From a virus, in the IMG/VR virus record IMGVR_UViG_3300035670_001152, positions 1 to 25,512 of that record: a stretch of 25,512 nt of DNA; one strand, given 5' to 3'. The position numbers and the translations under genes are program-made. Position 1 is the stretch's first letter, and each line of letters opens with the position of its first letter. Positions 5,418-21,474 of the stretch are shown in pieces. The notes below the pieces were generated by a model. It was not told where the DNA came from. It searched no databases and worked only from the letters and a program-made list of their open reading frames with translations.

Positions 5418-5418
5418 G

Positions 5419-6006: not shown

Positions 6007-6009
6007 GCG

Positions 6010-6099
6010 TCACCTGTCAGGTTCAGGAACCGGACTTGACGCCGCTTTGCACAAGCCCAGGACAAAGACAGACGCCAAGACAATCAGTAGCACTATCAT
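6010..6099 (-). CDS. 29-residue membrane microprotein
   Basis: A very short frame, MIVLLIVLASVFVLGLCKAA plus a short polar tail ending PVPEPDR. A single hydrophobic helix or signal anchor covers residues 2-16, with a Cys at 17. The ATG overlaps the stop of the previous microgene (ATGA), which suggests translational coupling. The stop lies just before the ATG of the next gene, whose ribosome binding site is in its last codons. Function unknown; a small membrane or lysis-related peptide is possible. Confidence 0.45.
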   Translation of the reverse strand: MIVLLIVLASVFVLGLCKAASSPVPEPDR

Positions 6100-6227
6100 T
6101 GCGGCTCGTCCTTCGTCGCTTCTGCGAGCAGTCGATTGATGAGCGCCTGCGCCCAAAGCTGCTCCGCCAACGTCATGGGCGTTTTGTTCAACAATGCGGC
6201 GAGCGCCTGAATCTCCTCTGTCGTCAT
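6096..6227 (-). CDS. 43-residue helical microprotein
   Basis: The frame MTTEEIQALAALLNKTPMTL continues to residue 43 as amphipathic helix with no membrane segment. GGAAGGAG stands seven nt before the ATG, a strong ribosome binding site, and the frame fills the gap between the fibre gene and the 29-residue membrane peptide. The two microgenes overlap by 4 nt. Function unknown. Confidence 0.5.
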   Translation of the reverse strand: MTTEEIQALAALLNKTPMTLAEQLWAQALINRLLAEATKDEPQ

Positions 6228-6239
6228 GTTTGCTCCTTC

Positions 6240-7649
6240 CTATGCGGTGGGCGCGGTGTAGAACGGCACAAAATACACGCCGTCCGTAATCGAATTAGTG
6301 CCTTGATCGTCTTGCACGTATACCTTGACCCATCCGGCAATCGCGCCCGGCGTCGTCATGTTTGCCGCATCTACCAGTGACTGTGACGCGTCAGTCGTGG
6401 ATGTGCCGATGAAGCGCACAAACTCCTCAGAAACGTCAGTCTGTGTCAAGGTAAGGACCGGCACAGCTTTCGTTGTGCTGTTTTGCACGACGTGCAAGCG
6501 CGAGGCCGGGCTGTCAGTCCCAATTCCAACAAAGCCGGAATTGATGGGCTGTATCTGGATGTTTCCAGTAGCATCGTTAGTCTTAAGAATGACGTTGCGG
6601 CTTGCACCTGATGTTGTCAGCGTCAGATTTGCACCGTTATCCCAAATCTCAGCGACACGCAATATTGTGCTGTTCAGTACGGCCCGACCGCCGGTGGCGG
6701 ATATTTGCAGATACCCGCTGCTGTCTGTGTAGATGTTGGAATAGACAGAGCCCGCCGTGTAGGACAATCTCAGTTGGTTGGTCGTCGGGTTGACGATCTC
6801 CAGCTTTGTCGCAGCGGCCGCGGCTGTTGCGCCAATTACCACGTCCCCACCACCCAGACGATAGCCGCCCGTGAAGAATGATCCAAACACGTTTGCGGTG
6901 CCCACGGTGACGCCTGTGCCGCTGCCGTCCGCTATGGCAACACATCCATCTGCCGTGATCGTGGCTAGACGGCCAAAAGCGAACGAATACGAGCCGGTGA
7001 TATTGTTGTTCGCTCCGCCGAAAATCCCTGACCTGCTGCCAACGATGTTATTCTCAGTGCCTCCGAGGATCACGGAAAAGACTTTGTCTTTGTCCGTGAT
7101 CGTGTTGGCCGTGCCACTGAAAATGCCGCTCCGCCCGCTCTGTACCACGTTGAACGATCCACCGCCGATGACGCTATGCCCGTGGACACTGTACCGCATG
7201 AAGTTATGCCCGCCGCCGCAGATCGTCCCAGCAATCTGGTTGACGATGTTATCGTATCCCCCGCCGATTGTGGATACGATTGCTGATCCCGCCACGTAAT
7301 CGGTATCCTCTGCCCAGCCGGTCGGCAATGGGATATAGGTACTGTACTCTGGCAAGCCGTTCGGCGAGCCGATTAGGTTTGCCCCCGGATTGTTGCCGCC
7401 GCCTGCTATGGTGTTTGTGTTCGTCCCGCTCTCGATGGTATTGTTCGCCGCGTTGACGCAGTAGTTCTTCGAGCCTTCGGTGTAGGTGTCGATCGTGATC
7501 GCCCCGATATTGATCTGCGAACCGCCCAACACGAATTTGCCGGAGCTGTTGTCCCACAACACGGCACGGAGGTCAACGCCAGCCGCAGGCGTCACGTTAA
7601 CATCGTGCTGGTCTTGCAGCCTGGTTACGGTCGGGGTTGCGATTGCCAT
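6240..7649 (-). CDS. Fibre-like protein with YadA-head-like repeats (putative head fibre)
   Basis: A 469-residue protein. After an N-terminal domain (TVTRLQDQHDVNVTPAAGVD onwards) come repeated turns of the form NxIxGGxxNxI (TNTIAGGGNN, VSTIGGGYDNIV, SGIFSGTANTI, VILGGTENNI, SGIFGGANNNI), as in left-handed YadA-like head repeats of trimeric adhesins. A beta region and a GFVGIGTDSPASRLHV segment follow, familiar from phage fibres. No S74 chaperone domain is visible. The ATG at 7649 is chosen because AGAAGG precedes it; an in-frame TTG at 7667 has no support. Its place between capsid and connector genes suggests a head fibre, though a tail fibre is possible. Confidence 0.7.
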   Translation of the reverse strand: MAIATPTVTRLQDQHDVNVTPAAGVDLRAVLWDNSSGKFVLGGSQINIGAITIDTYTEGSKNYCVNAANNTIESGTNTNTIAGGGNNPGANLIGSPNGLPEYSTYIPLPTGWAEDTDYVAGSAIVSTIGGGYDNIVNQIAGTICGGGHNFMRYSVHGHSVIGGGSFNVVQSGRSGIFSGTANTITDKDKVFSVILGGTENNIVGSRSGIFGGANNNITGSYSFAFGRLATITADGCVAIADGSGTGVTVGTANVFGSFFTGGYRLGGGDVVIGATAAAAATKLEIVNPTTNQLRLSYTAGSVYSNIYTDSSGYLQISATGGRAVLNSTILRVAEIWDNGANLTLTTSGASRNVILKTNDATGNIQIQPINSGFVGIGTDSPASRLHVVQNSTTKAVPVLTLTQTDVSEEFVRFIGTSTTDASQSLVDAANMTTPGAIAGWVKVYVQDDQGTNSITDGVYFVPFYTAPTA

Positions 7650-7676
7650 TGTATTCCTTCTGCTCAAATTCCACGC

Positions 7677-8995: not shown

Positions 8996-9610
8996 TTACT
9001 CCGTAGTAGTTGACCAGAAGACCCCGCCACCCTGTCCGCCGAACACGTTGGCGCCGCCGCCGCCCATCCCATAGATGCGCTTCAGGCGCTCCTCCGTGCT
9101 CGGCCCCGGCGCGCCGCCGGCCGGGTTGGTGGGCGAGATCGTTCCGGCTTTCGCCGCCAGATACGGCTTGGCTGCCAGCAGGGCTTTCAGCTCCCGCTCT
9201 AGGCCGCCGATCTGGCCCTTGTCGTCGATCTCCAGGGCTGTCTGATCCAGCAGCCTGATGGCATCCTCTGGATCGTTGAAGCCCGCTTTCGCCGCCGCCG
9301 AGATCACCTGCGTGCGCAGAAGTTGCTGCTGGCGCTGCTGTTCAGCTGCCGCCCGTGCCTGGCGTTCAGCCTCCAGATCAGCCTTGAGCTTCTCCAGCTC
9401 GGTCATCTCGGACCGCTTGCGCTGCTCTTCGGCCTCCTCCGCTGCCCGCAGCTTCGTTCGCCACGAAGCCGCTTCCTTGCGCAGCGTCTTGACCTCTTTC
9501 AGCAGCGCCTCGATATCCGGCGTGCTCTGCTCTGCCCCTGGCTCCTGGCCCTGGGTCGTCGTTTCTTCCGTTGGGGTTGTGGGCGCCTGGCCCGTCGTTT
9601 GAGGTTCCAT
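8996..9610 (-). CDS. Capsid scaffolding protein
   Basis: A 204-residue protein with a disordered, Thr/Gln/Glu-rich N-terminus, a long charged coiled coil (about residues 33-100: IEALLKEVKTLRKEAASWRT, ELEKLKADLEAERQARAAAE), the FNDPEDAIRLLD segment and a Gly-rich tail. This is the layout of GP20/DUF4355-type scaffold proteins that template procapsid assembly and leave or are degraded. It is directly followed by the capsid gene and is first behind the promoter-like palindrome at 9634-9673. GGAG lies 11 nt before the ATG. Confidence 0.87.
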   Translation of the reverse strand: MEPQTTGQAPTTPTEETTTQGQEPGAEQSTPDIEALLKEVKTLRKEAASWRTKLRAAEEAEEQRKRSEMTELEKLKADLEAERQARAAAEQQRQQQLLRTQVISAAAKAGFNDPEDAIRLLDQTALEIDDKGQIGGLERELKALLAAKPYLAAKAGTISPTNPAGGAPGPSTEERLKRIYGMGGGGANVFGGQGGGVFWSTTTE

Positions 9611-9692: not shown

Positions 9693-9709
9693 GCTAACAT
9701 GCCCTTATC
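9693..9709 (-). promoter_or_regulatory. 17-bp dyad element, copy 5 of 12
   Basis: The coding strand reads GATAAGGGCATGTTAGC. It overlaps the TGA stop of the MuF gene (TGATAA) and is followed by GCGCGTGGA, then by the -35 of P1 about 12 nt further on. Confidence 0.76.
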
Positions 9710-10766
9710 ACCTGTAGAACTTGCGCGCCTCATCCTCGCCGAGTAGTTCCTTCAAGCTCGGCATCACACGCATCAGCCCATAGACCGGATCGTCATGCTG
9801 CGCGCTGAGCTGATCCCAGCCCACCTTGCCAGCCTGCCACGCGTCGAACATGGCGCCGCCCATGTAGCCCTGCTGCTGGGCTGCGCTCAGGCTCTCGAAC
9901 CAATCCCGACCGCTGCCCACCTGCGGCCGCGTGTCCGGCAAGCCCTTGAAGCCCAGCGCCTCCCAGCTCTTCGTCACCGGCACCATGGCGCAGCGCCCAT
10001 TATGGTGATCGTTCAGCACCTCGTCCGGCTTGTGCAGTGTCCCGTGCATCGCGATGCAACTCATGCACACCCGGTCGTCCAGTTCCGCGTGCCAGATCCA
10101 GCCCTCCACGATGTCCGAGTTCGCCACGTAGGCCGCGCGGCTGCCTTCACGATAGGCCCACAGTTGCGCCGTCCTGGCCGTGCGCAGCGCCCACGCCAGC
10201 CCCTGGCCCAGCTCACGGCTGATCGCGCTGGCGATCTTGCGCGGGTTCCAGCCCAGGGCAATGCCGAGCAGCAGCCGCCGCTCCACCTGGCTGGCCACCG
10301 CCTCCCCGAGCTGCTTGACCAGCGAGTCTCGCAACGGCGACCCCGGCGCCAGGAAGCCCATCATGCGCAGCACGGCCTCGGTTGGCAGGCGGTTCCACTC
10401 CGCCCGCAGCGCCGCCGCTATCGGCTCCGGGATGCCCGCCAGCGCCATCTGCTGCGCATGTTGCAGCCCCAGCGCCACCTGCTGGCTGATCTGCGCCTGG
10501 AGGTCCGTGTCCACGAACGCCCCGAACCGCCCGATCTGCTCTACGATCTGCACCCGCAAGCTGCGCCAGCGCGCCAGCCTGGCCACCTTCCAGGCCTTAG
10601 GCTCGTCCATCAGCGCCAGCTCAGCCGTCAGCGCCTCGATCATCACCTGAAGCTCCTGAACGATCTGGCCGTAGGCCTGGACGTAGCGCACAGCCTGCTG
10701 CCGCTCCATCGCCAGCAGCGCCCGCCGGAATCGCTCAGCCGCCTCGATGGTCGGGTGCTCAGGCAT
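9708..10766 (-). CDS. Minor head / head morphogenesis protein (Mu gpF-like)
   Basis: A 352-residue protein. The N-terminal half is helical (TIEAAERFRRALLAMERQQA onwards). The conserved core about residues 175-265 contains RTARTAQLWAYREGSRAAYV, WHAELDDRVCMSCIAMHGTL and HHNGRCAMVPV, the Cys/His cluster of the phage Mu gpF family. These proteins sit inside the head near the portal and assist head assembly or DNA ejection. The start is placed at the ATG 10766, with AAGGAG upstream and an 8-nt overlap with the previous gene; the frame is open 44 codons further but that part is out-of-frame shadow of the previous gene. Confidence 0.86.
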   Translation of the reverse strand: MPEHPTIEAAERFRRALLAMERQQAVRYVQAYGQIVQELQVMIEALTAELALMDEPKAWKVARLARWRSLRVQIVEQIGRFGAFVDTDLQAQISQQVALGLQHAQQMALAGIPEPIAAALRAEWNRLPTEAVLRMMGFLAPGSPLRDSLVKQLGEAVASQVERRLLLGIALGWNPRKIASAISRELGQGLAWALRTARTAQLWAYREGSRAAYVANSDIVEGWIWHAELDDRVCMSCIAMHGTLHKPDEVLNDHHNGRCAMVPVTKSWEALGFKGLPDTRPQVGSGRDWFESLSAAQQQGYMGGAMFDAWQAGKVGWDQLSAQHDDPVYGLMRVMPSLKELLGEDEARKFYR

Positions 10767-11007
10767 CTCCGAGCAGCTCCTTGCTGACCCAGCCCAGCGC
10801 AGCCACCGGCACCCAGCCATTTTCTTCCAGCCCGATCCGAACAATCCGCACGCCGGGCTGCAAGACCGCAACATGCGGAAGATTGATCGATGGTCCACTG
10901 CGCAGCTTCGCAGCGCTATTGGTCGACGCCTCGTCCATCGTCGGGCGCCAGCCCGTTTGATCCTCGAACGCCGCCAGGATCGTCATCTCGCCAATCTGCA
11001 GTGTCAT
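10759..11007 (-). CDS. Unknown 82-residue protein in the head operon
   Basis: The protein starts MTLQIGEMTILAAFEDQTGW and ends WVPVAALGWVSKELLGDA. It looks like a small alpha/beta protein without membrane segments or metal ligands. Its ATG overlaps the methyltransferase stop by 4 nt (ATGA), with GGAGG upstream, and its end overlaps the MuF start. This strict coupling supports expression. No family recognised. Confidence 0.65.
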   Translation of the reverse strand: MTLQIGEMTILAAFEDQTGWRPTMDEASTNSAAKLRSGPSINLPHVAVLQPGVRIVRIGLEENGWVPVAALGWVSKELLGDA

Positions 11008-11456
11008 GTTGCCTCCAGTTTGCGAAGAACCGCATGGATGTTAGCCAGGTCAATGCCAAGCTGGACGATCTCCCACTTCTTGGCCGTGTAGAAGCCATAC
11101 TTCTGGCCCCACTGGGTGCGCGGGTCCAGGTAGTGAAAGGTCTCCGGGTGATAGCATCGCACGTGCGTAGGATCGATCACCGCGTTCGGGCTGTTCCACA
11201 TCGGCGTGCGCACAGCCGCCACGCCGCCCGGCCGCAGGATGCGCCACACCTCGTCGAAGAAGCCGATGAAGCCCATGTGCAAATGCTCCAGCAGGTCTTG
11301 CGCCACCACCTGGTCGAACGAGCCATCAGGCCATGGCCATGGCGTCAATTCCAAGTCATGCGCCACATCCACCCACGGCGAATGCGACGTCAGGTCATGG
11401 TTCACCGCGCCGTCCAGCGGCTCATTGCCGCAGCCCAGGTTCAGGATGGTGGCCAT
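11004..11456 (-). CDS. SAM-dependent methyltransferase (Methyltransf_11-like, short)
   Basis: A 150-residue class I methyltransferase. Motif I is ILNLGCGNEP (residues 4-13), followed by VNHDLT, SFDQVVAQDLLEHL (motif IV region with EH) and FDEVWRILRPGGVAAVRTP. The core is short, with a compact C-terminal substrate region (RTQWGQKYGFYTAKKWEIVQ). It overlaps the preceding glycosyltransferase by 16 nt and the next gene by 4 nt. By association it may methylate a glycan or protein made or modified by the neighbouring glycosyltransferases; the substrate is not visible in the sequence. Confidence 0.82.
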   Translation of the reverse strand: MATILNLGCGNEPLDGAVNHDLTSHSPWVDVAHDLELTPWPWPDGSFDQVVAQDLLEHLHMGFIGFFDEVWRILRPGGVAAVRTPMWNSPNAVIDPTHVRCYHPETFHYLDPRTQWGQKYGFYTAKKWEIVQLGIDLANIHAVLRKLEAT

Positions 11457-12130
11457 GAGTAGTCTATCCCGCTGCCGTCCAGCACCAGCGGCTCCGCCCG
11501 TTCCCAGCTACGATTGCCCCAGGCGCTCTCACGCTCGCCGATGTGCTCTGACAAGTCCAGCGCCGCCAGCTTGTAGCCCCTGGCCTGCAAGTCCCGGCAG
11601 ACCGTCAAGTCCTCGCCGCCAGTTTGGTCAGCTAGGGGCCCGATCAGCGTGCGCCAGTGCCGCGCAGGAAACGACCACGAGCTGCCCGGCAGAGTCGCCC
11701 GGATCAGCGTCCGCTCGCCGCCGATCACCAGGTCCTCCAGCACCGTGTTCCACGGGTACACCGGCTCCCAGTTCAGCGAGGCCAGCCCCACCCAGGACGG
11801 CGCCGCCTGCCAGAACGCCAGAAGACGCGCCGCCCATCTTGGCTTGTACAGGTAGTCGTCAGCCGAGAACACGATCACGCTGGCCCCCGTCGCCGCGGCC
11901 ATGTCCAGCGCCGTGTTCATGCTGTAGCCTACCGTCACCCGATTCTCGAAGACGTAGCTGTTCGGCTGGTGCGCCACCCACGCCCGTTGCTGATCGTCAC
12001 TGCTGCCGCCGTCGACCAGCACACGCTTGAACGGATACCCAGGATGGGCGTCCATGCTGGCCAGCGTCTGCCGCAGGAAATGAAACCGATTGAAGGTCAG
12101 GACCGCAACGCAAATCGTCGGCTGTTCCAT
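11441..12130 (-). CDS. GT2-like glycosyltransferase A (GT-A fold)
   Basis: A 229-residue protein with the GT-A order: TICVAVLTFNRFHFLRQTLA at the N-terminus, LVDGGSSDD (39-46), VFSADDYLYKP with D91/D92 as the metal/nucleotide-binding acidic pair, and a late GGEDLTVCRDLQARGY (ED, residues 173-174) as in bases of GT2 enzymes. The start is set to the ATG at 12130, with GGGAGG about 9 nt upstream; the longer open frame is shadow of the preceding gene, which it overlaps by 34 nt. It probably transfers a sugar from a nucleotide donor; the acceptor is unknown. Confidence 0.82.
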   Translation of the reverse strand: MEQPTICVAVLTFNRFHFLRQTLASMDAHPGYPFKRVLVDGGSSDDQQRAWVAHQPNSYVFENRVTVGYSMNTALDMAAATGASVIVFSADDYLYKPRWAARLLAFWQAAPSWVGLASLNWEPVYPWNTVLEDLVIGGERTLIRATLPGSSWSFPARHWRTLIGPLADQTGGEDLTVCRDLQARGYKLAALDLSEHIGERESAWGNRSWERAEPLVLDGSGIDYSWPPS

Positions 12131-12777
12131 ACGCCAAACGCCTCCCGTGCGACTCTCCGGTTGAACGACGACCGCCCGCTCTGGTACGTGATGGGCGCTT
12201 CCACCACCGTCAGACCCAGCCACCGGCACGCCAGCAGCACCTCGATCTGCCAGGCGTGCATGGTCGCCGTGTACGTCAGCCTGGCCAGCTTGCGCAGCGC
12301 CCCCGCCGCGAAAACCCGATAGCCGGAAGTCCAGTCGCTAATCCCGCTTAACGCGTGGAAGTAGCGCACGTTGCACGCCAACGCCGCAGCCCGGCTCAGA
12401 CTCTGCCGCACCGGGCTGCCCAGGTAACATGACCCCGGCCGGAACCTTGATCCCACCAGCACGTCCGCATCGCCCAGGCGACCTACCAAATGCGTTGCCG
12501 CCTGCGGGTCATGGCTGCGGCCCGCGTCAATTTGCACCACGGCCGTGGCTCCAGCGTCCAGCGACCAGCGCCACCCCTCCACCAGGCTCGGCCCGATCCC
12601 GCGCCGGACCTGGTGCATAATGACGTGCGCGCCTGCGTATCGCGCCAGATAGGTTGTTTCATCCTGGCTGGCATCGTCGATCACGCACACGCGCAGCCCC
12701 TGCTCGCGCAAGCCGACCACCAGCCAGCCGATGCTCTCCGCCTCATTCAGAGTCGTCACCACAGCACAGGTGTTCAT
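12097..12777 (-). CDS. GT2-like glycosyltransferase B (DPM1-like)
   Basis: A 226-residue protein of the dolichol-phosphate-mannose synthase-like branch: VVTTLNEAESIGWLV, VCVIDDASQDET (D34/D35), VVQIDAGRSHDP (D84 in the DxD-equivalent), VLVGSRFRPG, SGISDWTSGYRVF and QIEVLLACRWLG. It lacks the C-terminal membrane helices of many relatives, so it should be soluble or peripheral. The start ATG at 12777 overlaps the preceding stop by 4 nt. It follows a virion-type beta protein gene, which is a candidate acceptor by position only. Confidence 0.85.
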   Translation of the reverse strand: MNTCAVVTTLNEAESIGWLVVGLREQGLRVCVIDDASQDETTYLARYAGAHVIMHQVRRGIGPSLVEGWRWSLDAGATAVVQIDAGRSHDPQAATHLVGRLGDADVLVGSRFRPGSCYLGSPVRQSLSRAAALACNVRYFHALSGISDWTSGYRVFAAGALRKLARLTYTATMHAWQIEVLLACRWLGLTVVEAPITYQSGRSSFNRRVAREAFGVWNSRRFALRS

Positions 12778-13352
12778 TCCTTGTCCGTGTGCTCGTACCA
12801 CTCGATATCCCAGTTGATGAAGTTGGCCGCGTTGCTGACAGCGTTCACGATCTGCAATGCATAGGTCGTGTTCTGCTTGGCCACCCACTCGTTCTCAGCC
12901 CGCTGGCTGCCGCCCAAGTCGCGGCCGCTGCCCCAGTGCCATGTCTGCAACAGTGCCGTGCCGATGGTGCCGGGGGAGGCCGTGCCAGCAGTCGCCCCCG
13001 TGTAGACGCTACAGGTCGGCAGGGTTGCGCTGTTGCGGTTGCGGTTCCACGCCGTAACCGCGTCTCCAATCGTGCCCCCGTGCGCCGTGCCCGCCGTGAA
13101 GCCCTCGTACAGCTTCACATCGGTTTCCAGCTCGCTGACCACTGCCGGCACCATGTGGGCCCACTTCGTGGTATCCGGCGTCCTGAACGTCAGGATCAAC
13201 GTGCCTGCGGCCGCCAAGTCTACCGCGCCGCTGGCGCTGAACAGGCTGCCGCCGTGCAGCTCGTGATGAGCATAGTCGATAGTGTTCAACGCGTGCGTCG
13301 ATCCGTCGAACGCATCCTTCCACACTGATTGCACCGATTGAGAAGTAGCCAT
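12774..13352 (-). CDS. Virion-associated beta protein (putative decoration or fibre protein)
   Basis: A 192-residue protein. The text GSTHALNTIDYAHHELHGGS, LILTFRTPDTTKWAHMVPAV, TAWNRNRNSATLPTCSVY, AENEWVAKQNTTYALQIV and WDIEWYEH resembles a widespread family of small phage structural beta-sandwich proteins with the NRNRNS loop and a C-terminal WYE motif. Function in other phages is mostly assigned as virion component. It stands just before two glycosyltransferases and is rich in Ser/Thr, which makes it a possible glycosylation target. The ATG at 13352 begins a few nt after the previous stop. Confidence 0.6.
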   Translation of the reverse strand: MATSQSVQSVWKDAFDGSTHALNTIDYAHHELHGGSLFSASGAVDLAAAGTLILTFRTPDTTKWAHMVPAVVSELETDVKLYEGFTAGTAHGGTIGDAVTAWNRNRNSATLPTCSVYTGATAGTASPGTIGTALLQTWHWGSGRDLGGSQRAENEWVAKQNTTYALQIVNAVSNAANFINWDIEWYEHTDKE

Positions 13353-13356
13353 TGTG

Positions 13357-13779
13357 TCACCTCGCAGGAATTACAGAATTCAACGGCAGGGCAATTCCCC
13401 GCCGCTGTTGCACATCCCTCCACCACTGCTCGAACACGCTCGGCAGAAGGATGCGCCGCTCGATGTAGGACAAGCCGGCCATCGCCGCCTGCACGCTCTC
13501 AGGCGTAGGCGTGCTCATACGCCACAAGTCCTCCAGCGCCCGCACCGCCCAGTCATAGCCCTGGACGTGCGGCAGCACGCTCCGCTCCAGGTCAGCCCAC
13601 GTCACGATGCGCGGCTGGTCGAACACGCCCCGCTCAGGCGCAGGCCGCGCGGCTGGCGCCGGCTGCCGCCACGCGTCTTCACTGTGCGTTGAACACAGCC
13701 GCTCGCCCGTCGGCCCGTTGAAGAAGGCCGGCGCGCCGCACACCGCGCACCTGCTTTGTCGATACTTCCATCCCGGCAT
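13357..13779 (-). CDS. Zinc-ribbon protein in the head operon
   Basis: A 140-residue protein. The N-terminus has CAVCGAPAFFNGPTGERLCS followed by TH, that is C-x2-C-x13-C-x2-H, a probable zinc-binding ribbon. The rest is helical (WADLERSVLPHVQGYDWAVR; GLSYIERRILLPSVFEQWWR). The ATG at 13779 is chosen because GGAGG precedes it; the longer frame would run into dyad element copy 6. Function unknown; small Cys-rich proteins in this position are seen in several phages. Confidence 0.65.
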   Translation of the reverse strand: MPGWKYRQSRCAVCGAPAFFNGPTGERLCSTHSEDAWRQPAPAARPAPERGVFDQPRIVTWADLERSVLPHVQGYDWAVRALEDLWRMSTPTPESVQAAMAGLSYIERRILLPSVFEQWWRDVQQRRGIALPLNSVIPAR

Positions 13780-13798
13780 AGAGCCTCCAAATCCGCGC

Positions 13799-13815
13799 GC
13801 TAACAAACACTTATC
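13799..13815 (-). promoter_or_regulatory. 17-bp dyad element, copy 6 of 12
   Basis: The coding strand reads GATAAGTGTTTGTTAGC, follower GCGCGCGGA. Its TAA (13811-13813) is the stop codon of the 27-residue membrane microgene. The zinc-ribbon gene starts 19 nt later. Confidence 0.74.
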
Positions 13816-13894
13816 GTCGGTTCCACCGTTCACCCACCGCCGCGCCCAGGATCACCAATCCCAGGCCCAGCAGCAGCCAGAGCCCGGCATCCAA
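13811..13894 (-). CDS. 27-residue membrane microprotein
   Basis: The TTG start directly follows the portal stop (TAG TTG). The peptide MDAGLWLLLGLGLVILGAAV plus GERWNRR is one hydrophobic helix with a basic tail. It fills the gap between the portal gene and the dyad element, and its stop is the element's TAA, as with larger genes elsewhere in the window. The ribosome binding site is weak (GGGG about 9 nt upstream), so expression would depend on coupling to the portal gene. Confidence 0.4.
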   Translation of the reverse strand: MDAGLWLLLGLGLVILGAAVGERWNRR

Positions 13895-15202
13895 CTACTG
13901 GCCCCGCTCAAAGGCCGCCAACAGCCGGTTGCCGATGTTGTCCGACATCGCCTCTTCATCCGCGATGCGCTCCTGCTCTTGCTCCCAGTTGCGCCCGCGC
14001 AGCGAGGCCGCCGTTTCCTTGCTCAGGATGCCCAGCCCCATCTCCGTCTGGATGCCGGCGATCTCCTCCTGATCGTTGAAGGGCAGCGGGTCCGGCCAGG
14101 TCACCACCGGCCTGGCCGCCCAGCCCATCAGCGCCAACGCCCGCTCGCTGATGTCGGCCAACCCAGTGCCGTACAGAGCCCGCTTTGTCGCCAGCTTGTC
14201 CAGCGCGTCCTTGTACAGCGTGCGCAAGCCGAAGTTGGTGATGTTGCCCATGTCCTTGGCGAAGGTGCTCATATCCACCGCGCGGTGCTCGCTGAAGAAC
14301 CAGCCCTGTAGGAACGTGAGGAACGCCATTGACGACCCAAGGTCACTTTGCATCTCCAGGTTCTTGATCTGCGCCTCCGAGTTCGGCACGCTCCAGAACC
14401 CGTCCACGTCCGTCGCTTGCAGGTCCGTCGACCGCATCCCCGTGCCGATCGTCTTAGGGTGCGCGTGGAACTTCAGGATGCGCATGGTGTTGCTGGCCAG
14501 GAAATTCAGCGCGTCGTTCAGCTCAGGCCGCACCAGGTCAGGGTCACCGTAGTACTCCTCCGGGTCGGGCAGGTTCTGCCATTCCACAATCGGCGCCCAG
14601 GGGAAGCCCCAGATCACCTCATTCATCACGGCCCAGTTCTTCCCCCGCTCCCTGACCAGGTCACGCACCAGCCACGACCCGCCCAGGTTGACGATATCCT
14701 GGCGCAGGCTCGTGTCGCCCTGCTCGAAGCTGATCGAGTAGGCCGTCACCTGGTCCATGTCATCCGGCCGCCAGTACACCGTCACCATGCGCGGGTTCAG
14801 CAGCACGAACCGCACGCCGCCCTCCACAGGCGCCAGCTTGACGAACACATGGCCCGTCAGCGCCCCTTCCAGGGCCAGGTTGTGGAGGAAAATCGGCGCA
14901 TCGTTGGCCGCCCACAGCGCCTCTAGCGCCTCGTCCTCTGGGTCGTCACCCTGGCTGCCGATCTCGAACGTTGGCGGCTCGCCGAACAGCAGCGCCACAG
15001 CCTGCTCGATGGTCTTACGGCACACGTTCAGGATCACGTTGTCGTCCGGCTGGCCCGGCCTGACCTTCAGCGGCCGCTTCTGGTTGCCCTCATAGTACGC
15101 CCAGGCCGCATCAATCTGTTTGCGCCGCTGCGTCATCTCGCCTTCCGCCATCCGGTCCAGCTCGCCCGGCTTCTCCATCGGGTATTCCATCAGTCCAGGC
15201 AT
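13895..15202 (-). CDS. Portal protein (SPP1 gp6-like)
   Basis: A 435-residue protein. Recognisable stretches are AAWAYYEGNQKRPLKVRPGQ, NVCRKTIEQAVALLFGEPPT, NLALEGALTGHVFVKL, a wing region with LNPRMVTVYWRPDDM, the long helix DALNFLASNTMRILKFHAHP and the late KETAASLRGRNWEQEQERIA. This is the phage_prot_Gp6/SPP1-type portal order. The dodecameric portal is the DNA channel and terminase docking site. AAAGGAG lies six nt before the ATG. It follows terminase and the CHAT-like gene rather than terminase alone. Confidence 0.9.
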   Translation of the reverse strand: MPGLMEYPMEKPGELDRMAEGEMTQRRKQIDAAWAYYEGNQKRPLKVRPGQPDDNVILNVCRKTIEQAVALLFGEPPTFEIGSQGDDPEDEALEALWAANDAPIFLHNLALEGALTGHVFVKLAPVEGGVRFVLLNPRMVTVYWRPDDMDQVTAYSISFEQGDTSLRQDIVNLGGSWLVRDLVRERGKNWAVMNEVIWGFPWAPIVEWQNLPDPEEYYGDPDLVRPELNDALNFLASNTMRILKFHAHPKTIGTGMRSTDLQATDVDGFWSVPNSEAQIKNLEMQSDLGSSMAFLTFLQGWFFSEHRAVDMSTFAKDMGNITNFGLRTLYKDALDKLATKRALYGTGLADISERALALMGWAARPVVTWPDPLPFNDQEEIAGIQTEMGLGILSKETAASLRGRNWEQEQERIADEEAMSDNIGNRLLAAFERGQ

Positions 15203-15215
15203 CTCGAACTCCTTT

Positions 15216-15232
15216 GCTAATCCGTCGTTAGC
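15216..15232 (-). promoter_or_regulatory. 17-bp dyad element, copy 7 of 12
   Basis: The coding strand reads GCTAACGACGGATTAGC with 5-bp perfect arms. It begins one nt after the TAA stop of the CHAT-like gene; the follower is AAAGGAG, the portal ribosome binding site, instead of GCGCGTGGA. Confidence 0.72.
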
Positions 15233-15233
15233 A

Positions 15234-15995
15234 TTACAAGTGCAGCTCTACAAACTCGCCAACCGTCGCCGGCGCCCGTTGCAGCGCCCGCTCAAACGCC
15301 TCGTTGGCGTCCATGCCCAGCCCCACGGCCAGCCAGAACGCCCCAGCGAAGATGCTCGCTGCCTTGTTTTCTACATCCTCGCGCATCGAGACCACTGCCG
15401 GGACCACGCCCAGCAGGTCCGCTACCTGGTCTGCGGAGCACCCTGCCAGCACGGCAATCTCTACACCAGCGAGGTGCTCGCTCAGCCACAGTCCGGTAGC
15501 CACGCCATCGTTGAAGGCCAGACCACCCGGACCGCTGTGCACGGCCAGGTGCAGGAGCTTGACCGGCGTGCCTGCAGCCCGGTGCCTGTCCAGCGTCCGC
15601 ACCAGGCTGGCCTTGCTGACCGGCAACAGCCGGCTGATCCTGATGTCGGTCTGCGTCTGGACCCGACGCAACTGCGCCAGGTCCTCCTGCAACATCCCGT
15701 CAGCACCAACACCGACCAGCAGAACCCGCTTTTCCTTCAGCGGCTCGTTCATCGGCGGCGACGTGCGCTCCAGCTGGCGAATGCGCTCGTTCAGCCGGTC
15801 GATCTCGTTCTGCTTTTCGACCAACATCCGCTGTAAGGACGCGATGTCCCGCTCTAGACTGGCCACCCGTTGCACGAGCTCGTCCTCTCGGCTCAGCGGC
15901 GCAGCTGGCAGCCGCCTTTTTTCTCGCTTAATCGCCAGCCCCATCGCCACTACGCCAACGAGAAGGGCTGCAACGGTCAGTGGATCAACATTCAT
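15234..15995 (-). CDS. Membrane-anchored CHAT-like (caspase-like) cysteine protease
   Basis: A 253-residue protein in three parts. Residues 6-22 form one membrane helix (TVAALLVGVVAMGLAI) followed by basic KREKRR. Residues about 36-79 are a coiled coil (LVQRVASLERDIASLQRML, EKQNEIDRLNERIRQLE). Residues about 89-240 resemble a CHAT/caspase-like domain: VKLLHLAVHSGPGGLAFNDG carries the likely catalytic H153 in the place of the usual GHG, EIAVLAGCSADQVADLLG carries C186, and PAVVSMREDVENKAASIFAG, then AFWLAVGLGMDANEAFERAL, match the family's final strand and helices. The ATG at 15995 overlaps the previous gene by 11 nt. Between terminase and portal this is unexpected. Roles in host takeover, exclusion or virion processing are inference. 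Confidence 0.7.
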   Translation of the reverse strand: MNVDPLTVAALLVGVVAMGLAIKREKRRLPAAPLSREDELVQRVASLERDIASLQRMLVEKQNEIDRLNERIRQLERTSPPMNEPLKEKRVLLVGVGADGMLQEDLAQLRRVQTQTDIRISRLLPVSKASLVRTLDRHRAAGTPVKLLHLAVHSGPGGLAFNDGVATGLWLSEHLAGVEIAVLAGCSADQVADLLGVVPAVVSMREDVENKAASIFAGAFWLAVGLGMDANEAFERALQRAPATVGEFVELHL

Positions 15996-16377
15996 CGTCG
16001 CGCCCTGCTGTGATCTCGCCAAGCATGGCCCACATGATCGCGGTGTCCAGCAGCTTGGAGGTCATGCTCGTCGTCGCAGCAGCCAGTACGCTCCATACTA
16101 GCAGCGCCGCAAGTGCCACCAGCCGGCCGCTCAGTCGCAAACGGAAGCGGTTGTGGCACGTGGCCAACAGTGCCAGACCTGCGGCCAGGAACAGCCAGCC
16201 GAATGTTGCTTGTGGCAGAATGCCCAACGGATACGTGATCGCAGGTCCGGGGAAAAATGGCAACCGTGGGAACGCCACCGCCAGCGTCAGCCAGGCTGCC
16301 ATCCGCCGCACCTCGCCGCCCCGGAACGGTCGCACGATCAACCATATCTTGCGCGTTATCGCTTGAAGCGCATCCAT
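15985..16377 (-). CDS. Small multi-helix membrane protein
   Basis: A 130-residue protein with hydrophobic segments at about 26-52 (MAAWLTLAVAFPRLPFFPGP), 60-75 (GWLFLAAGLALLATC) and 86-101 (LVALAALLVWSVLAAA), and a basic N-terminus (RKIWLIVRPFRGGEVRR). It has no enzymatic motif. It is coupled to the CHAT-like gene by an 11-nt overlap, so the two may work together at the membrane. The ATG at 16377 has no close ribosome binding site; it stands directly after dyad element copy 8. A holin is conceivable but not supported beyond topology. Confidence 0.65.
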   Translation of the reverse strand: MDALQAITRKIWLIVRPFRGGEVRRMAAWLTLAVAFPRLPFFPGPAITYPLGILPQATFGWLFLAAGLALLATCHNRFRLRLSGRLVALAALLVWSVLAAATTSMTSKLLDTAIMWAMLGEITAGRDDEC

Positions 16378-16379
16378 GG

Positions 16380-16396
16380 GCTAATCAACTGTTACC
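16380..16396 (-). promoter_or_regulatory. 17-bp dyad element, copy 8 of 12
   Basis: The coding strand reads GGTAACAGTTGATTAGC, the most divergent copy (GG instead of GA/GC in the first arm). It lies between the large terminase stop (16408) and the membrane protein ATG, only two nt before that start. Confidence 0.6.
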
Positions 16397-16407
16397 TTCC
16401 GAAAATC

Positions 16408-17787
16408 CTACAAGTAAAAAGGGTTCTCGGACGTTTCGACCGGTTCATATCCAGCCAACCGCATGAGACCATAGACCATAGCATCCACCAGATCGTCATG
16501 AGCGCCATTCGGAAATGTCAGCATCTCATGCACGAGGGCATCCACATACGGACCGTTCACGATCCGTACCATCCCGCTCTCGAAGAAGCGGGTGACGCTG
16601 TTCGCCCTGGCGACCTTATCACCAGCCGGCTCGATCTCAATCATAGGCAGCCCGCTGAACCTCAGTTGCTGCCGCAGACTCTTGCCGCTGGCCCGGGCCT
16701 CCACAAGCTGCTCCGCAGTTGGCCATCTGGCCACCTGCGCCTTGACGGCCCGCACAAGTTCTGGAAATTCGAGCCGATCATGCACAAGCGGCTGCACGTA
16801 GATCATGCCGTCCTCGGCCTGGCCGACCAACACCCCGGCCGAGTAGTCGCTGCTCTCCTTGCTCTCAAACGCCGTGTCCCATACGACACCAGAACGTGCC
16901 AGGACAGGCACAGTCTCTGCGTATGATAGCCAGGCAGCCTTGAAGACGTTTCCTTCTTCCTGGCGCGGCTCCTGATCATACAGAGCCGCCCAGTCGCGCT
17001 CGCCAATGCTGGCCTTCGTCTGGAGCAGCGCCGCGCGGTCGTAGCGCTGCGGATCGAGCGCCTCGCCAAGATCTCGGCCCAATGGATCCGCGGCCTTGGC
17101 CAGCCCAGCCAGCTTGATCACATGCCACTGGTCAGCGGTTGGGTTGTCCGCTGCCAGCTTCAGCAGCCGGCCGGCCAGATCATCCTCATGCCAGCGGGTC
17201 ATCACCAGTACGATTCTGCCGCCCGGCTCTAACCTGGTGCGCAGGGTGGACGTGTACCAGTTCCACGTGCTTTGCCGGAAGGTGGCGCTGTCGGCCTCTG
17301 CCCGGTTCTTCACCGGGTCATCGATGACGATCACCTGACCGCCCTTGCCGGTGATAGGTCCGCCCACGCCAGCAGCCTGCAAACCGCCACGCTGACCGGC
17401 GATCTTCCACCGCTGCACCGCCCGACTGTCGGCCGCTAGTGCCACATCCGGCGAGGTCTTCACCTCAACCAGGCGCCTGCCGCCGAACAACTCGGCGAAT
17501 TCCTCGCTGGCCACCACGCCCCGGCACTCGCCAGATTTGTCCCACGCCAAATCGGCAGCGTAGGACGTGTACAGCATCGGCCATTCCGGGTGCCGGCCCA
17601 GGCACCAGGCCAGCCAGCGTATAAGCAGCTCGGTTTTTCCAGTGCGAGGCGGCATGAACACCATCAGCCGCCGCACCTCGCCGCGCTCCACAGACTCCAG
17701 TTGCTCGGCGAGGAACGTGTGAACGAATCCCGGCCTGTACCAGGGAGCCGTGTACATCGTGAATTCAATCAACCGGCGCCGGGCCAT
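16408..17787 (-). CDS. terL: Terminase large subunit
   Basis: A 459-residue protein from the chosen start. The ATPase part has Walker A VFMPPRTGKTE (residues 43-53), Walker B VIVIDD (152-157) and coupling motif VLVMTRWHEDDLAGRL. The nuclease part has VVWDTAFESKESSDYSAG (D304, D314) and GAHDDLVDAMVYG (D431, D432, D435), the C-terminal signature of the TIGR01630-type terminases. It packages DNA through the portal. The frame is open to an ATG at 17874, but that start would overlap the small subunit by 110 nt; ATG 17787 leaves a 23-nt overlap and keeps the usual family beginning (MARRRLIEFTMYTAPWY). Confidence 0.93.
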   Translation of the reverse strand: MARRRLIEFTMYTAPWYRPGFVHTFLAEQLESVERGEVRRLMVFMPPRTGKTELLIRWLAWCLGRHPEWPMLYTSYAADLAWDKSGECRGVVASEEFAELFGGRRLVEVKTSPDVALAADSRAVQRWKIAGQRGGLQAAGVGGPITGKGGQVIVIDDPVKNRAEADSATFRQSTWNWYTSTLRTRLEPGGRIVLVMTRWHEDDLAGRLLKLAADNPTADQWHVIKLAGLAKAADPLGRDLGEALDPQRYDRAALLQTKASIGERDWAALYDQEPRQEEGNVFKAAWLSYAETVPVLARSGVVWDTAFESKESSDYSAGVLVGQAEDGMIYVQPLVHDRLEFPELVRAVKAQVARWPTAEQLVEARASGKSLRQQLRFSGLPMIEIEPAGDKVARANSVTRFFESGMVRIVNGPYVDALVHEMLTFPNGAHDDLVDAMVYGLMRLAGYEPVETSENPFYL

Positions 17788-18373
17788 CTCCGTGCGCAGC
17801 GCCTGCTGGCCTCTGGGCGATGCGAGCCAGCGCAGCGAGTTCCGCGTCTGTGAGGCTGCCGAGGTCATACACATCCACTCGTTGCTCGATGCTGGCGGGC
17901 GAGCTCGGCCTGCCCAACTTGCTGCCGGTCTCTGGCTCAGCCCACCGCATCAGTGTCTCAGCCGCCGCTATCCGATCGGCGCCCTTCTGGTCAGCGCCGT
18001 CCATCACCTGGGCCAGCGCCGCCGGCGCCTTCGCGCTGTACTCTGCAATCGCCCGCCGGCGCGTCCTGCGGTGCTGCTCCTCGATGGAGACCGTTTCGGC
18101 GTCTACCCAGTCCAGCGCCCGCGCCCGGCACGCATCGAACGCCGCGGCCACTTCTGGGATGTCCTTCCACTTGCTCCACCAAATCTGCTCGGCGCACGTG
18201 TCCGGCCGATCAAAGACCGTCTTCAGCGGCGCCGACGTGGCATAGGCAAACGCCAGCAGGATCACCGTCCGCCGCTTCTTCGCTTCCCACGGCCCCGGGA
18301 TCGCACTCAACAGCCGGCTGATCTCCGGCGTCATCCACTGCCAGCCTTCAGGTTCGTTCACTCGCACAGTCAT
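17765..18373 (-). CDS. Probable terminase small subunit
   Basis: A 202-residue protein starting MTVRVNEPEGWQWMTPEISR. The N-terminal half has a helix-turn-helix-like order (RRTVILLAFAYATSAPLKTV followed by WWSKWKDIPEVAAAFDACRA), the middle is helical, and the acidic C-terminus ends ELAALARIAQRP. Small terminases recognise the packaging site with such an N-terminal domain and recruit the ATPase. Position directly before the large subunit supports the call. An ATG at 18373 is used; the TTG before it is unlikely. No good ribosome binding site is visible, only dyad element copy 9. Confidence 0.72.
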   Translation of the reverse strand: MTVRVNEPEGWQWMTPEISRLLSAIPGPWEAKKRRTVILLAFAYATSAPLKTVFDRPDTCAEQIWWSKWKDIPEVAAAFDACRARALDWVDAETVSIEEQHRRTRRRAIAEYSAKAPAALAQVMDGADQKGADRIAAAETLMRWAEPETGSKLGRPSSPASIEQRVDVYDLGSLTDAELAALARIAQRPAGAAHGDGPAPVD

Positions 18374-18384
18374 CAAGAACGCCC

Positions 18385-18401
18385 GCTAACTGCTTGTTAG
18401 C
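18385..18401 (-). promoter_or_regulatory. 17-bp dyad element, copy 9 of 12
   Basis: The coding strand reads GCTAACAAGCAGTTAGC; its 5-bp arms are perfect and a sixth bp is lost to a one-base offset in the centre only. It lies 11 nt before the small terminase ATG and abuts an 11-bp direct repeat. Confidence 0.72.
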
Positions 18402-18422
18402 ACATCACTTTCACATCACTTT
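18401..18422 (-). repeat. Two tandem copies of AAAGTGATGTG
   Basis: An exact 11-bp direct repeat in the 108-bp gap between the SleB-like gene and the small terminase gene. A related CTTAACTTTCACC follows on the plus strand. The rest of the gap has no credible gene. A protein-binding or packaging-related site is possible given its place before the terminase genes. Confidence 0.5.
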
Positions 18423-18481
18423 CGACTTAACTTTCACCAGCCTCCGGGTGTTGCGCGGTGGGGTGATCCTGGCTACACGAA

Positions 18482-18811
18482 CTAGCGCCAACTCTCAACC
18501 CACGTCCCATCACACACCCAGCGGCCAGTCCGCTCACGCAGCCAGGGCATCCGTTCCGCATCGCCCGGCCCGATGAAGTATAGCGCTCCGTCTACCAGAT
18601 CGGGCAGCGCGCCGCCCCACTGGGCCGCCAACACATCCAGCACAGCCGGCTCAGCCCAGCCGAACCAACCGCCTGTGATGCCGGCCGCCAGCCGGTTCAG
18701 CGCCACCTGCACCGCGGCCACCTTCGCCAGCCACGGGCAGCCCGGCGTTTCGCCCGCCACGATCCACGCCAACATGGCCAGTGTCAGGATCAGCAACAAG
18801 GATAACTCCAT
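18482..18811 (-). CDS. Membrane-anchored SleB-like cell wall hydrolase (putative endolysin)
   Basis: A 109-residue protein. Residues 3-19 are a signal anchor (LSLLLILTLAMLAWIVA), directly followed by GETPGCPWLAKVAAVQVALN and R40, resembling the start of cell-wall hydrolase SleB domains (GE followed by AVAxVxLNR), where the Glu (E21) is catalytic. LDVLAAQW and GALYFIGPGDAERMPW fit the later QW and LYF(Y/F) region. It is shorter than usual SleB domains. The ATG overlaps the preceding stop (TGATG), with GGAG five nt upstream. It probably degrades peptidoglycan during lysis; alternatively a small virion-linked transglycosylase. Confidence 0.55.
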   Translation of the reverse strand: MELSLLLILTLAMLAWIVAGETPGCPWLAKVAAVQVALNRLAAGITGGWFGWAEPAVLDVLAAQWGGALPDLVDGALYFIGPGDAERMPWLRERTGRWVCDGTWVESWR

Positions 18812-19152
18812 CAGTTCTCCGGCCAATCATCATCGGGCGTCCAACTGTCCGCCGGCTGGTAATTGCGCTGCCGCCGCATAATCCACGCCGTAAGCTGTAC
18901 CCTGGCCAGCGCAATCTCGGTCTGCTTGTACACCGTTCGGCTCTCGCCCGGCTGCGGCGGCTCCGGCTGCTGTCCTAGCCATCGCTCCGCCATCCCCAAG
19001 AACGCCACCGCCAGCCGCACAGACGCCGCGGCCAGCGCATCCCGGCCGCCCGGCGTCCGCATGGCCAGCACCAGCCCGACGGTGAAGATCACGAACACCA
19101 CCACAGCCACTACCAGCGCCACGTTTTCCATCAGCCATTCGGTCGCCGACAT
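18811..19152 (-). CDS. Single-pass membrane protein (holin candidate)
   Basis: A 113-residue protein, MSATEWLMENVALVVAVVVF onwards, with one strong membrane helix (about 9-32) and a long polar C-terminal part containing a second weaker helix (LAAASVRLAVAFLGMAERWL). It is coupled to the SleB-like gene and lies behind promoter-like element P2, so a holin or accessory lysis role is a reasonable inference. The ATG at 19152 is chosen for the GGAGG six nt upstream; the longer frame to 19206 would include the hairpin at 19168-19198. Confidence 0.55.
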   Translation of the reverse strand: MSATEWLMENVALVVAVVVFVIFTVGLVLAMRTPGGRDALAAASVRLAVAFLGMAERWLGQQPEPPQPGESRTVYKQTEIALARVQLTAWIMRRQRNYQPADSWTPDDDWPEN

Positions 19153-19167
19153 ACTGCCTCCGATCAT

Positions 19168-19198
19168 AAAGAAGAAGCCGCCTGCCTGAGCACGCGGC
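19168..19198 (-). terminator. Terminator- or attenuator-like hairpin downstream of P2
   Basis: On the coding strand GCCGC-G-TGC pairs with GCA-G-GCGGC around a TCAG loop, with one G-G mismatch, and is followed by TTCTTCTTT. It lies about 40-60 nt after the expected P2 start and before the 113-residue membrane gene, so it could attenuate that transcript. Confidence 0.4.
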
Positions 19199-19217
19199 CG
19201 TCTCACCTGGAAACACC

Positions 19218-19720: not shown

Positions 19721-19740
<20 letters not shown>
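19624..19740 (-). CDS. Possible 38-residue protein
   Basis: The frame MMSSSTEFDQRRAWLDELLA continues KPHLWPHQVLQVGVITHS. It starts inside the end of the replication gene (20-nt overlap), with GGAAGG five nt before the ATG, and its stop lies in dyad element copy 10. The amphipathic helix RRAWLDELLA is plausible protein. Function unknown. Confidence 0.45.
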
Positions 19741-20620
<880 letters not shown>

Positions 20621-20644: not shown

Positions 20645-20873
20645 CTTAGCCTTGCCACGCCTGCCTTGCCATGCCGCGCCATGGCCAACCTTGCCGGGCC
20701 GTGCCCAACCTGCCTAGCCCAGCCTAGCCAAGCCCGACCTAGCCAATCCAAGCCTGCCCTGCCATGCCTCGCCATGCCTCGCCGTGCCTTGCCATGCCTG
20801 CCTCGCCGCGCCAGGCCAGGCCTGGCCAGGCCCGGCCCTGCCCAGCCGCGCCTGCCGTGCCGTGCCTGCCGTG
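20645..20873. repeat. Degenerate 5-bp-periodic repeat tract (NNGCC), possible origin
   Basis: On the plus strand the tract reads in steps of five, for example TAGCC CAGCC TAGCC and TGCCT CGCCA TGCCT, for about 45 units with occasional phase slips. It fills the gap between the gene ending at 20875 and the replication gene starting at 20620. Open frames on both strands here are by-products of the repeat. Adjacent to a replication initiator, iteron-like origin function is possible but unproven. Confidence 0.8.
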
Positions 20874-20874
20874 C

Positions 20875-21474
20875 TCATTCGACGTGTTTCGCCTCGACCA
20901 CATGGAACATGCCCCACTGGCCGTCCCGCTGCGGTCGGTGCTCGCCGACGCCGATACTGAAGCCGGCCACGTTGAACAGGTTGGCGATCTGGTCAAGGCT
21001 CAACACGCCAGCGTTGTAGCGGATGTGCAGAGTCGCTTTCCAGGTCGGGAACTCTGGCCGGATGCGAACGTCCGCCGTCCCCATCGCGATGCGCACCATG
21101 TCTTGACGTTGCACCGGGCCGGTGTAGTCTTCCAGCGGCACGATTTCGCCATCAACATGAAACGCGCCGCGGGCAGCGACCTTGGTCAAGTCGGAGACGT
21201 GGGAGCAAGCATCAACCGCTGCGGCCTTGAAAGCGATAGCGGGAAAACCGTAGCATCCGTCAGGCGTCTTGTAGAAGCACTCCTCGTACAGCGCTTCGGG
21301 GTCCTTCGCTTCCTTGGCCTGCTTGGCTTTCTTCATCTGCTTGTCGAGAATTTCCTGTTTGGCCTTAGCGCTCCACGCGTGCACGACCAGTGGGCTGTCG
21401 CTCGCCAGCACAATCACTGCGCGGCGAATGTCGATTGGCAGAATGTCTGCCTGTGCCGTTTTCTTTGCTACCAT
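20875..21474 (-). CDS. Phage protein of unknown function (replication/recombination region)
   Basis: A 199-residue protein. VIVLASDSPLVVHAWSAKAK opens a beta region, followed by a Lys-rich helix (DKQMKKAKQAKEAKDPEALY), GCYGFPAIAFKAAAVDACSH and a C-terminal NVAGFSIGVGEHRPQRDGQW then GMFHV. The last motif (G-x-I-G-x-G-E-x-R-P-x-x-D-G-x-x-G-x-F) recurs in many phage proteins located beside replication and recombination genes. I cannot assign an activity. GAAGGAG lies before the ATG; dyad element copy 11 is about 55 nt upstream. Confidence 0.65.
   Translation of the reverse strand: MVAKKTAQADILPIDIRRAVIVLASDSPLVVHAWSAKAKQEILDKQMKKAKQAKEAKDPEALYEECFYKTPDGCYGFPAIAFKAAAVDACSHVSDLTKVAARGAFHVDGEIVPLEDYTGPVQRQDMVRIAMGTADVRIRPEFPTWKATLHIRYNAGVLSLDQIANLFNVAGFSIGVGEHRPQRDGQWGMFHVVEAKHVE

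Follow-up and report, generated by a model that had tools for sequence, protein, structure and literature searches.

Introduction

CHAT proteases have been described chiefly among the effectors of bacterial immune systems, where they come with large sensor parts. In the portions of the papers cited here, SAVED-CHAT is described as setting off successive proteolytic steps by which type III CRISPR systems confer immunity (PMC11229360), Csx29 is reported to have the catalytic dyad H615/C658 and a pseudo-caspase CHAT1 domain (PMC10028731), and bacterial gasdermins are described as activated by adjacent caspase-like proteases (PMC9612521). A literature search covering titles and the starts of abstracts, bioRxiv preprints excluded, found no paper on a phage-encoded CHAT protein.

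The locus described here encodes a CHAT-like protein of 253 residues. Its CHAT-like domain is preceded by one membrane helix and a coiled coil and nothing else, with no TPR repeats and no second CHAT domain. SAVED-CHAT (PDB entry 8tl0) differs in having a SAVED sensor domain and in its type III CRISPR/CBASS context, as given in the cited part of PMC11229360; neither Pfam nor PADLOC finds a SAVED domain in residues 1-87 of the phage protein. Csx29 (TPR-CHAT, Craspase) shares the CHAT2 fold and the His-Cys dyad, while its TPR region, its pseudo-caspase CHAT1 domain and its CRISPR partner are all absent from the phage system. DdvA, by title a transmembrane anti-sigma factor (8rw5, 8rot), resembles the phage domain over its residues 800-991, but its solved chains run to 872-897 residues. 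Finally, the Calothrix plasmid CHAT protein BAZ36868.1 (P0001), the sole tblastn match (E 0.09) when phage and plasmid records were searched, has a His and a Cys that align with those of the phage protein; unlike the latter, it has its CHAT domain at the N-terminus, has no predicted membrane helix and is encoded near a type I restriction-modification locus.

The locus and its surroundings

The window, i.e. the whole stretch of DNA analysed, is the entire 25,512-base IMG/VR virus record IMGVR_UViG_3300035670_001152, possibly a fragment, and has a G+C content of 63%. On the minus strand, the gene for the terminase large subunit is followed by those for a small membrane protein, the CHAT-like protein and the portal, and later by those for the MuF-type, scaffold and major head proteins (Table 1). 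The position between terminase and portal and the separate scaffold gene, both given in the original prediction, are thus confirmed by Pfam and PHROG. The CHAT-like gene and its membrane partner are tightly placed in this late-gene strand, 30 nt from the terminase gene and 31 nt from the portal gene, and no promoter-like site or minus-strand terminator was found in 13300-18900. The CHAT-like gene begins with an ATG at 15995, and an in-frame TTG is also present 27 nt upstream. The coupling to a second membrane protein that had been predicted is seen as an overlap of the partner's stop with the CHAT start, through which the two genes are probably translationally coupled.

Table 1. Coordinates of features in the window.
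Feature	Position	Strand	Basis
CHAT-like protein of 253 residues with TM helix and coiled coil	15234..15995	-	ORF, Pfam, alignment, fold, shuffle test
N-terminal membrane helix, residues 4-22	15930..15986	-	hydropathy, Kyte-Doolittle 2.05
Coiled coil, residues 36-78	15762..15890	-	heptad register; coiled-coil Pfam models; helix in first fold
CHAT-like domain, residues 88-240	15276..15734	-	Pfam, alignment A7, hhalign, model, fold searches, shuffles
H153 codon, predicted catalytic histidine	15537..15539	-	invariant in 9/9 rows of A7
C186 codon, predicted catalytic cysteine	15438..15440	-	invariant in 9/9 rows of A7
Partner, a polytopic membrane protein of 130 residues without a family	15985..16377	-	2-3 hydrophobic segments
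11-nt overlap, partner stop / CHAT start	15985..15995	-	sequence
Cassette: DNA similarity to L001, 75% over 1105 columns	15232..16323	-	blastn
SPP1-type portal	13895-15202	-	Pfam, PHROG
Terminase large subunit (Terminase_6)	16408-17874	-	Pfam, PHROG
Scaffold protein	8996-9610		Pfam, PHROG
MuF-type protein	9708-10898		Pfam, PHROG; matches several head families
Small membrane protein upstream of terminase	18811-19206		phrog_10606 'membrane protein', E 0.0025

Pfam and PHROG searches of window proteins recognised no integrase, so that a prophage phase of this phage is at most a candidate. There are no tRNA genes in the window or in five other loci. The nearest relatives of a ParB-like protein of the window are plasmid proteins of Acaryochloris and Chlorohelix (Chloroflexota), which is only a hint as to the host.

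Other features of the window are its glycosyltransferase genes and its repeats. Two family-2 glycosyltransferases and a methyltransferase are encoded at 11004-12888, between the portal and the MuF-type genes, and a group-1 glycosyltransferase is found at 2443-3657. A second phage with the same gene pair (L001, see below) likewise has a methyltransferase between its CHAT and portal genes, and in both phages the structural operon seems to hold more than one cargo gene. GCC-rich short tandem repeats with periods of 5-24 run for about 225 bases (20649-20874) and occupy most of the gap separating the frames 19721-20620 and 20875-21474, and a hexanucleotide repeat of 11.3 copies (20052-20119) produces a polyglutamine tract in the 299-residue frame 19721-20620.

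Parts of the CHAT-like protein

The membrane helix and the coiled coil named in the original prediction are both recovered. A single strong membrane helix is predicted in the protein, with a basic KREKRR directly after it; by the positive-inside rule, the N-terminus would lie outside and the CHAT domain in the cytoplasm. Residues 36-79 show a heptad pattern in one register with 77% of the a/d positions hydrophobic, the stretch is matched by several Pfam coiled-coil models, and a first fold computed from a two-row alignment has a helix at 36-78 with a pLDDT of 86-90 at residues 41-70. The spanin model phrog_739 gives a weak match (E 0.02) to residues 7-84, which comprise the helix and the coiled coil only; a spanin would have a periplasmic coiled coil, and the charges suggest a cytoplasmic C-terminus. 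Matches to PADLOC models are likewise weak and of coiled-coil type, namely LmuB, PtuA and PbeC only, at E 0.017-0.12. No Peptidase_S78 or head maturation protease family of Pfam or PHROG matches the CHAT-like protein, nor do the CHAT or caspase models of NCBIfam.

Evidence for a CHAT-type domain

The Pfam CHAT model (PF12770) matches residues 97-239 with 18.2 bits (E 0.0018), and the homologue encoded by L001 with 21.0 bits (E 2.5e-4). Because these scores are under the curated cut-off of 24, which is a database threshold, we use the names CHAT-like and CHAT-type. An independent profile (A8) was built from eight other compact CHAT domains, taken from viral contigs and one plasmid protein, with the window protein excluded. 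Full-length Pfam scans of seven of these proteins place all seven above the CHAT cut-off (28.8-41.3 bits); the eighth is L016. A8 matches the window protein with 31.1 bits (E 5.6e-8 among 6,215 targets), compared to 7.1 bits for the best of 2,000 shuffled window proteins, and hhalign of A2 against A8 gives a probability of 96.2% (E 2.2e-9). The domain is almost certainly of CHAT type, as originally proposed.

In the nine-row alignment A7, seven of whose rows are distant (16-22% identical to the window protein), H153 (LLHLAVHSG) aligns with the second His of 'HFSGHG' and C186 (LAGCS) with the Cys of 'NACYS' in every row. The two residues that had been proposed as catalytic are therefore among the invariant positions, which also include H149, A212, F216 and F220. 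A7 leaves out L059, which comes from the contig of L016, as well as L065 and L066 (near-duplicates of L064, whose CHAT protein they encode identically or with one residue different) and the plasmid record L003, which was used in A3 and A8 and whose His and Cys align too. The C-terminal tail, described beforehand as typical, does correspond to the motif 'VIGMxxxIxDxAAxxFAxxFY' of compact CHAT proteins, but the Trp of its final 'FW' is restricted to the proteins of the window and L001, with Tyr in the other seven of the nine A7 rows.

The AlphaFold2 model of residues 80-253 computed on A7 has a pLDDT of 76.5 and a pTM of 0.78; it depends partly on the homology claim, since its input alignment contains accepted CHAT proteins, and a fold from the two family members alone failed (pLDDT 51.6). 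When the model is compared to the PDB with Foldseek, the best five matches are chains of SAVED-CHAT 8tl0 (E 3e-7 to 9e-7, TM 0.69-0.73), which also comes first when the PDB is searched with the compact CHAT profile (E 3e-30). Below 8tl0 the matches are mixed: pyridoxal kinases take ranks 6-7 (E 4e-4 to 5e-4, TM by query 0.38-0.39), and separase and caspase-4 come just after them at E 8e-4. VIA-align gives Z scores of 13.6 for 8tl0 (170 residues aligned, rmsd 3.7), 10.8 for DdvA, 9.3 for Csx29 (8eex), 8.9 for caspase-6 and 8.5 for separase, of which only those of 8tl0 and DdvA are clear of response regulators (up to 9.1), so that the score of Csx29 is not distinct from the latter. No TIR entry is among the best 50 matches of each PDB fold search. 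The predicted model thus has the caspase/separase-like topology that had been anticipated. Among viral structures in BFVD, two have matches with E below 0.001, namely A0A1P8DJ94 (264 residues, E 6e-6, TM by query 0.67) and A0A8S5MXG5 of Myoviridae sp. ctWaE18 (320 residues, E 6e-5, TM by query 0.58), both at 12-14% identity and unnamed or 'uncharacterized'.

The domain need not be a protease, and could instead serve as a binding or scaffold module. It is divergent, with a deletion of roughly nine residues ahead of the Cys strand and a score below the Pfam cut-off, and a precedent for an inactive domain is provided by the pseudo-caspase CHAT1 of Csx29, as described in the cited part of PMC10028731. 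Against this, H153 and C186 are kept not only throughout A7 but also between the window and L001 at a domain dS of about 0.8. A domain without protease activity is distinctly unlikely, and we consider it probable that the protease is active.

The membrane partner and the probable two-gene cassette

The best Pfam match of the partner is no stronger than E 0.44, and neither PHROG nor PADLOC has a model that matches it. Pattern-based scans of viral contigs reached only one close relative of the CHAT-like protein, that of L001, which is 84-85% identical; the exact family thus has two known members. The partner has a homologue in L001 at 3033-3407 that is 64-67% identical, and its gene overlaps the CHAT gene by 7 nt (3404-3410). 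In addition, a 101-residue protein with three hydrophobic segments is encoded at 2738-3043 of L001, overlapping the start of the partner gene, and the unit in L001 may consist of three genes.

In blastn, window 15232-16323 against L001 3069-4167 is the sole similar DNA, and it is confined to the gene pair. A rerun with L015, which covers 13,103 bases of the 15,824-base contig and adds 941 to the 12,162 bases of L001, again gave 15232-16323 alone; a tblastx run yielded many short scattered pieces whose E-values were summed with that of the cassette, and was given no weight. A blastp comparison of minus-strand window frames with plus-strand L001 frames of at least 60 residues found the pair and one weak methyltransferase match (30% over 100 residues, E 1e-6). 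The head genes of the two phages are different. L001 encodes TerL_nuclease, Phage_portal (PF04860), an S78 prohead protease and Phage_capsid, compared to the SPP1-type portal, Terminase_6, MuF-type and scaffold proteins of the window, and the portal and capsid proteins of the two show no similarity at E 1e-3. The same pair is found in phages with different head genes, and it is very probably an exchangeable two-gene cassette that is not tied to any one head type.

These data bear on a role in assembly, in which the protease would process prohead, portal or virion proteins. The pair does lie between terminase and portal in both phages, albeit with additional genes in between in L001, and Pfam and PHROG searches of window proteins found no protease of S78 type. 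However, L001 has its own S78 prohead protease besides the pair, for which reason the prohead protease was rejected as the main reading, in line with the doubt already raised in the original prediction. Moreover, the portal and capsid proteins of the two phages are dissimilar, the membrane helix speaks against a prohead location, and the MuF-type protein of the window matches phrog_595, named head maturation protease, among other head families (E 4e-13). We regard an assembly protease as very unlikely.

A different possibility, drawn by analogy, is that the pair controls lysis, with the partner as a holin-like pore or an antagonist and the tethered protease cutting the partner or another lysis protein in a timed manner. 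The late-operon site without a promoter-like site, the translation of a small polytopic protein immediately ahead of the protease and the third small membrane protein that overlaps the pair in L001 would all be consistent with such a role, and the adjacency of bacterial gasdermins and their proteases offers a parallel, as far as the cited part of PMC9612521 describes it. But no holin family of Pfam or PHROG matches the partner, and the other small membrane protein upstream of the window's terminase gene means that lysis does not have to be the task of the pair. Lysis control is a less likely but serious alternative.

Both genes are under purifying selection. From this one sequence pair, dN/dS is 0.22 for the partner gene and 0.10 for the CHAT gene, falling to 0.08 in its CHAT domain, with dS at about 1.0-1.3 for both genes and lower for the CHAT domain (see above), and saturated for the helix and coiled coil taken alone. 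The strong selection on the domain would suit a protease directed, while the phage itself is infecting, at a membrane or defence protein of the host, and a host-directed target fits a pair common to otherwise different phages. Genes for host takeover and anti-defence are usually early, whereas the pair is located among late genes; such a role is about as likely as lysis control and likewise a serious alternative.

Other phage-borne CHAT proteins

Searches for further relatives were mostly negative. Among 50,697 phage records, tblastn of the window protein gave no match at E 0.1, and megablast of window 1-25000 gave no match. Scans of viral contigs returned the contig of L001 or nothing, whether the query was the protein by itself, A1, A2, the partner sequence or the partner alignment. 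A degenerate tail pattern found 20 stretches in viral contigs, of which only L015 (from the contig of L001) and the large CHAT protein L016 are CHAT by eye. In genome contigs, the A2 search gave 88 candidate stretches with none confirmed, and a second pattern gave 29 with no CHAT by eye. The viral- and genome-contig scans depend on exact matches to short patterns and overlook relatives that have diverged; similarly, a search with A1 of 100 genomes of one phylum, that of the Nitrospiraceae MAG G003, found none but, being without a positive control, shows little.

Scans with the compact CHAT proteins brought in further viral contigs, L059-L067. In three lineages, L062, L063 and L064 (with L065 and L066), the CHAT gene lies beside phage structural genes, a count that excludes L059, L060, L061 and L067. 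In L064, which has a P22-type portal, it is on the opposite strand adjoining the small terminase gene (terS); this coiled-coil CHAT gene (5335-6417) lies on a stretch common to L064-L066 at about 95% DNA identity, with terS annotated in L064. In L062, it is on the opposite strand between the tail terminator and capsid protein E, and in L063 it is downstream of the tail genes and an amidase. The CHAT gene of L062 is accompanied by a gene for a 303-residue protein that starts inside it, both on the strand opposite to the structural genes (5821-7663). No Pfam, PHROG or PADLOC model matches the 303-residue protein, and the two genes are a possible further two-gene CHAT cassette.

The compact CHAT proteins of L060, L063 and L064-L066 resemble the window protein in having an N-terminal coiled coil, a C-terminal CHAT domain and the same His and Cys, but they are longer (343-360 residues), have no comparable hydrophobic segment and have no recognised membrane partner; the CHAT domains of L060, L063 and L064 are 16-20% identical to that of the window. 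The hydrophobic segments of seven compact CHAT proteins do not exceed 1.43, compared to 2.05 for the window helix. The CHAT proteins of L060, L063 and L064 match the PADLOC chat and/or SAVED_CHAT models, and their coiled coils match the defence candidate PDC-S66 (model PDLC05062) at E 1.3e-15, 1.2e-14 and 4.8e-10, respectively, a match that may partly reflect coiled-coil composition and that is not seen for the window protein. Other coiled-coil models are matched as well, JetC by all three proteins and LmuB and PbeC by that of L060, with E between 2e-6 and 1e-3. The layout of the window protein is thus less unfamiliar than had been supposed, since small phage-borne CHAT proteins occur elsewhere, while its membrane helix and partner remain distinctive. 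It is most readily regarded as the membrane-anchored form within a broader group of small CHAT proteins carried by phages.

Discussion

A tethered, probably multimeric protease that would be co-translated with a polytopic protein suggests a membrane-located switch. The original prediction had offered exclusion, host takeover, anti-defence and cleavage of virion proteins as conceivable roles. We tentatively favour, at rather less than an even chance, a role of the pair in superinfection exclusion or abortive infection. The first 25 residues would anchor the CHAT-like protein in the inner membrane, the coiled coil would probably multimerise it, and the caspase/separase-type cysteine protease domain would be held on the cytoplasmic face. 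The partner, made just before it and sharing the membrane, would be the regulator or sensor, either silencing the protease or sensing the trigger. A competing phage that enters or disturbs the membrane would then release the protease, which would cut a host or phage protein, so that the second infection is excluded or aborted.

Exclusion or abortive infection is favoured because of the exchange of the cassette together with the cargo-like sites of other phage CHAT genes, the defence-candidate coiled coil of some of these proteins, and the part played in immunity by the nearest relatives of solved structure, SAVED-CHAT and Csx29, as presented in the cited parts of PMC11229360 and PMC10028731. 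On the other hand, the defence-model matches of the window protein itself are weak and of coiled-coil type, without PDC-S66 among them, no integrase was recognised among the window proteins searched, and the exact family has just two known members. In addition, the packing of the pair into the late strand and the lack of a promoter-like site point to late co-expression, which fits lysis or assembly at least equally.

A bolder and doubtful reading is that of a phage 'membrane caspase' pair, in which a tethered CHAT protein would cleave its polytopic partner or be triggered by it. By analogy, such a pair could be, with as little likelihood, a two-gene killing or exclusion device exchanged by tailed phages and a phage counterpart of the caspase-gasdermin logic. 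If this is true, phages themselves use caspase-type proteases, by means of a small transferable membrane-tethered CHAT pair. The pair is a minimal two-gene system for direct tests of membrane sensing and protease activation, and the compact CHAT proteins at cargo-like sites in several phages make up a short list of candidate phage-borne proteases.
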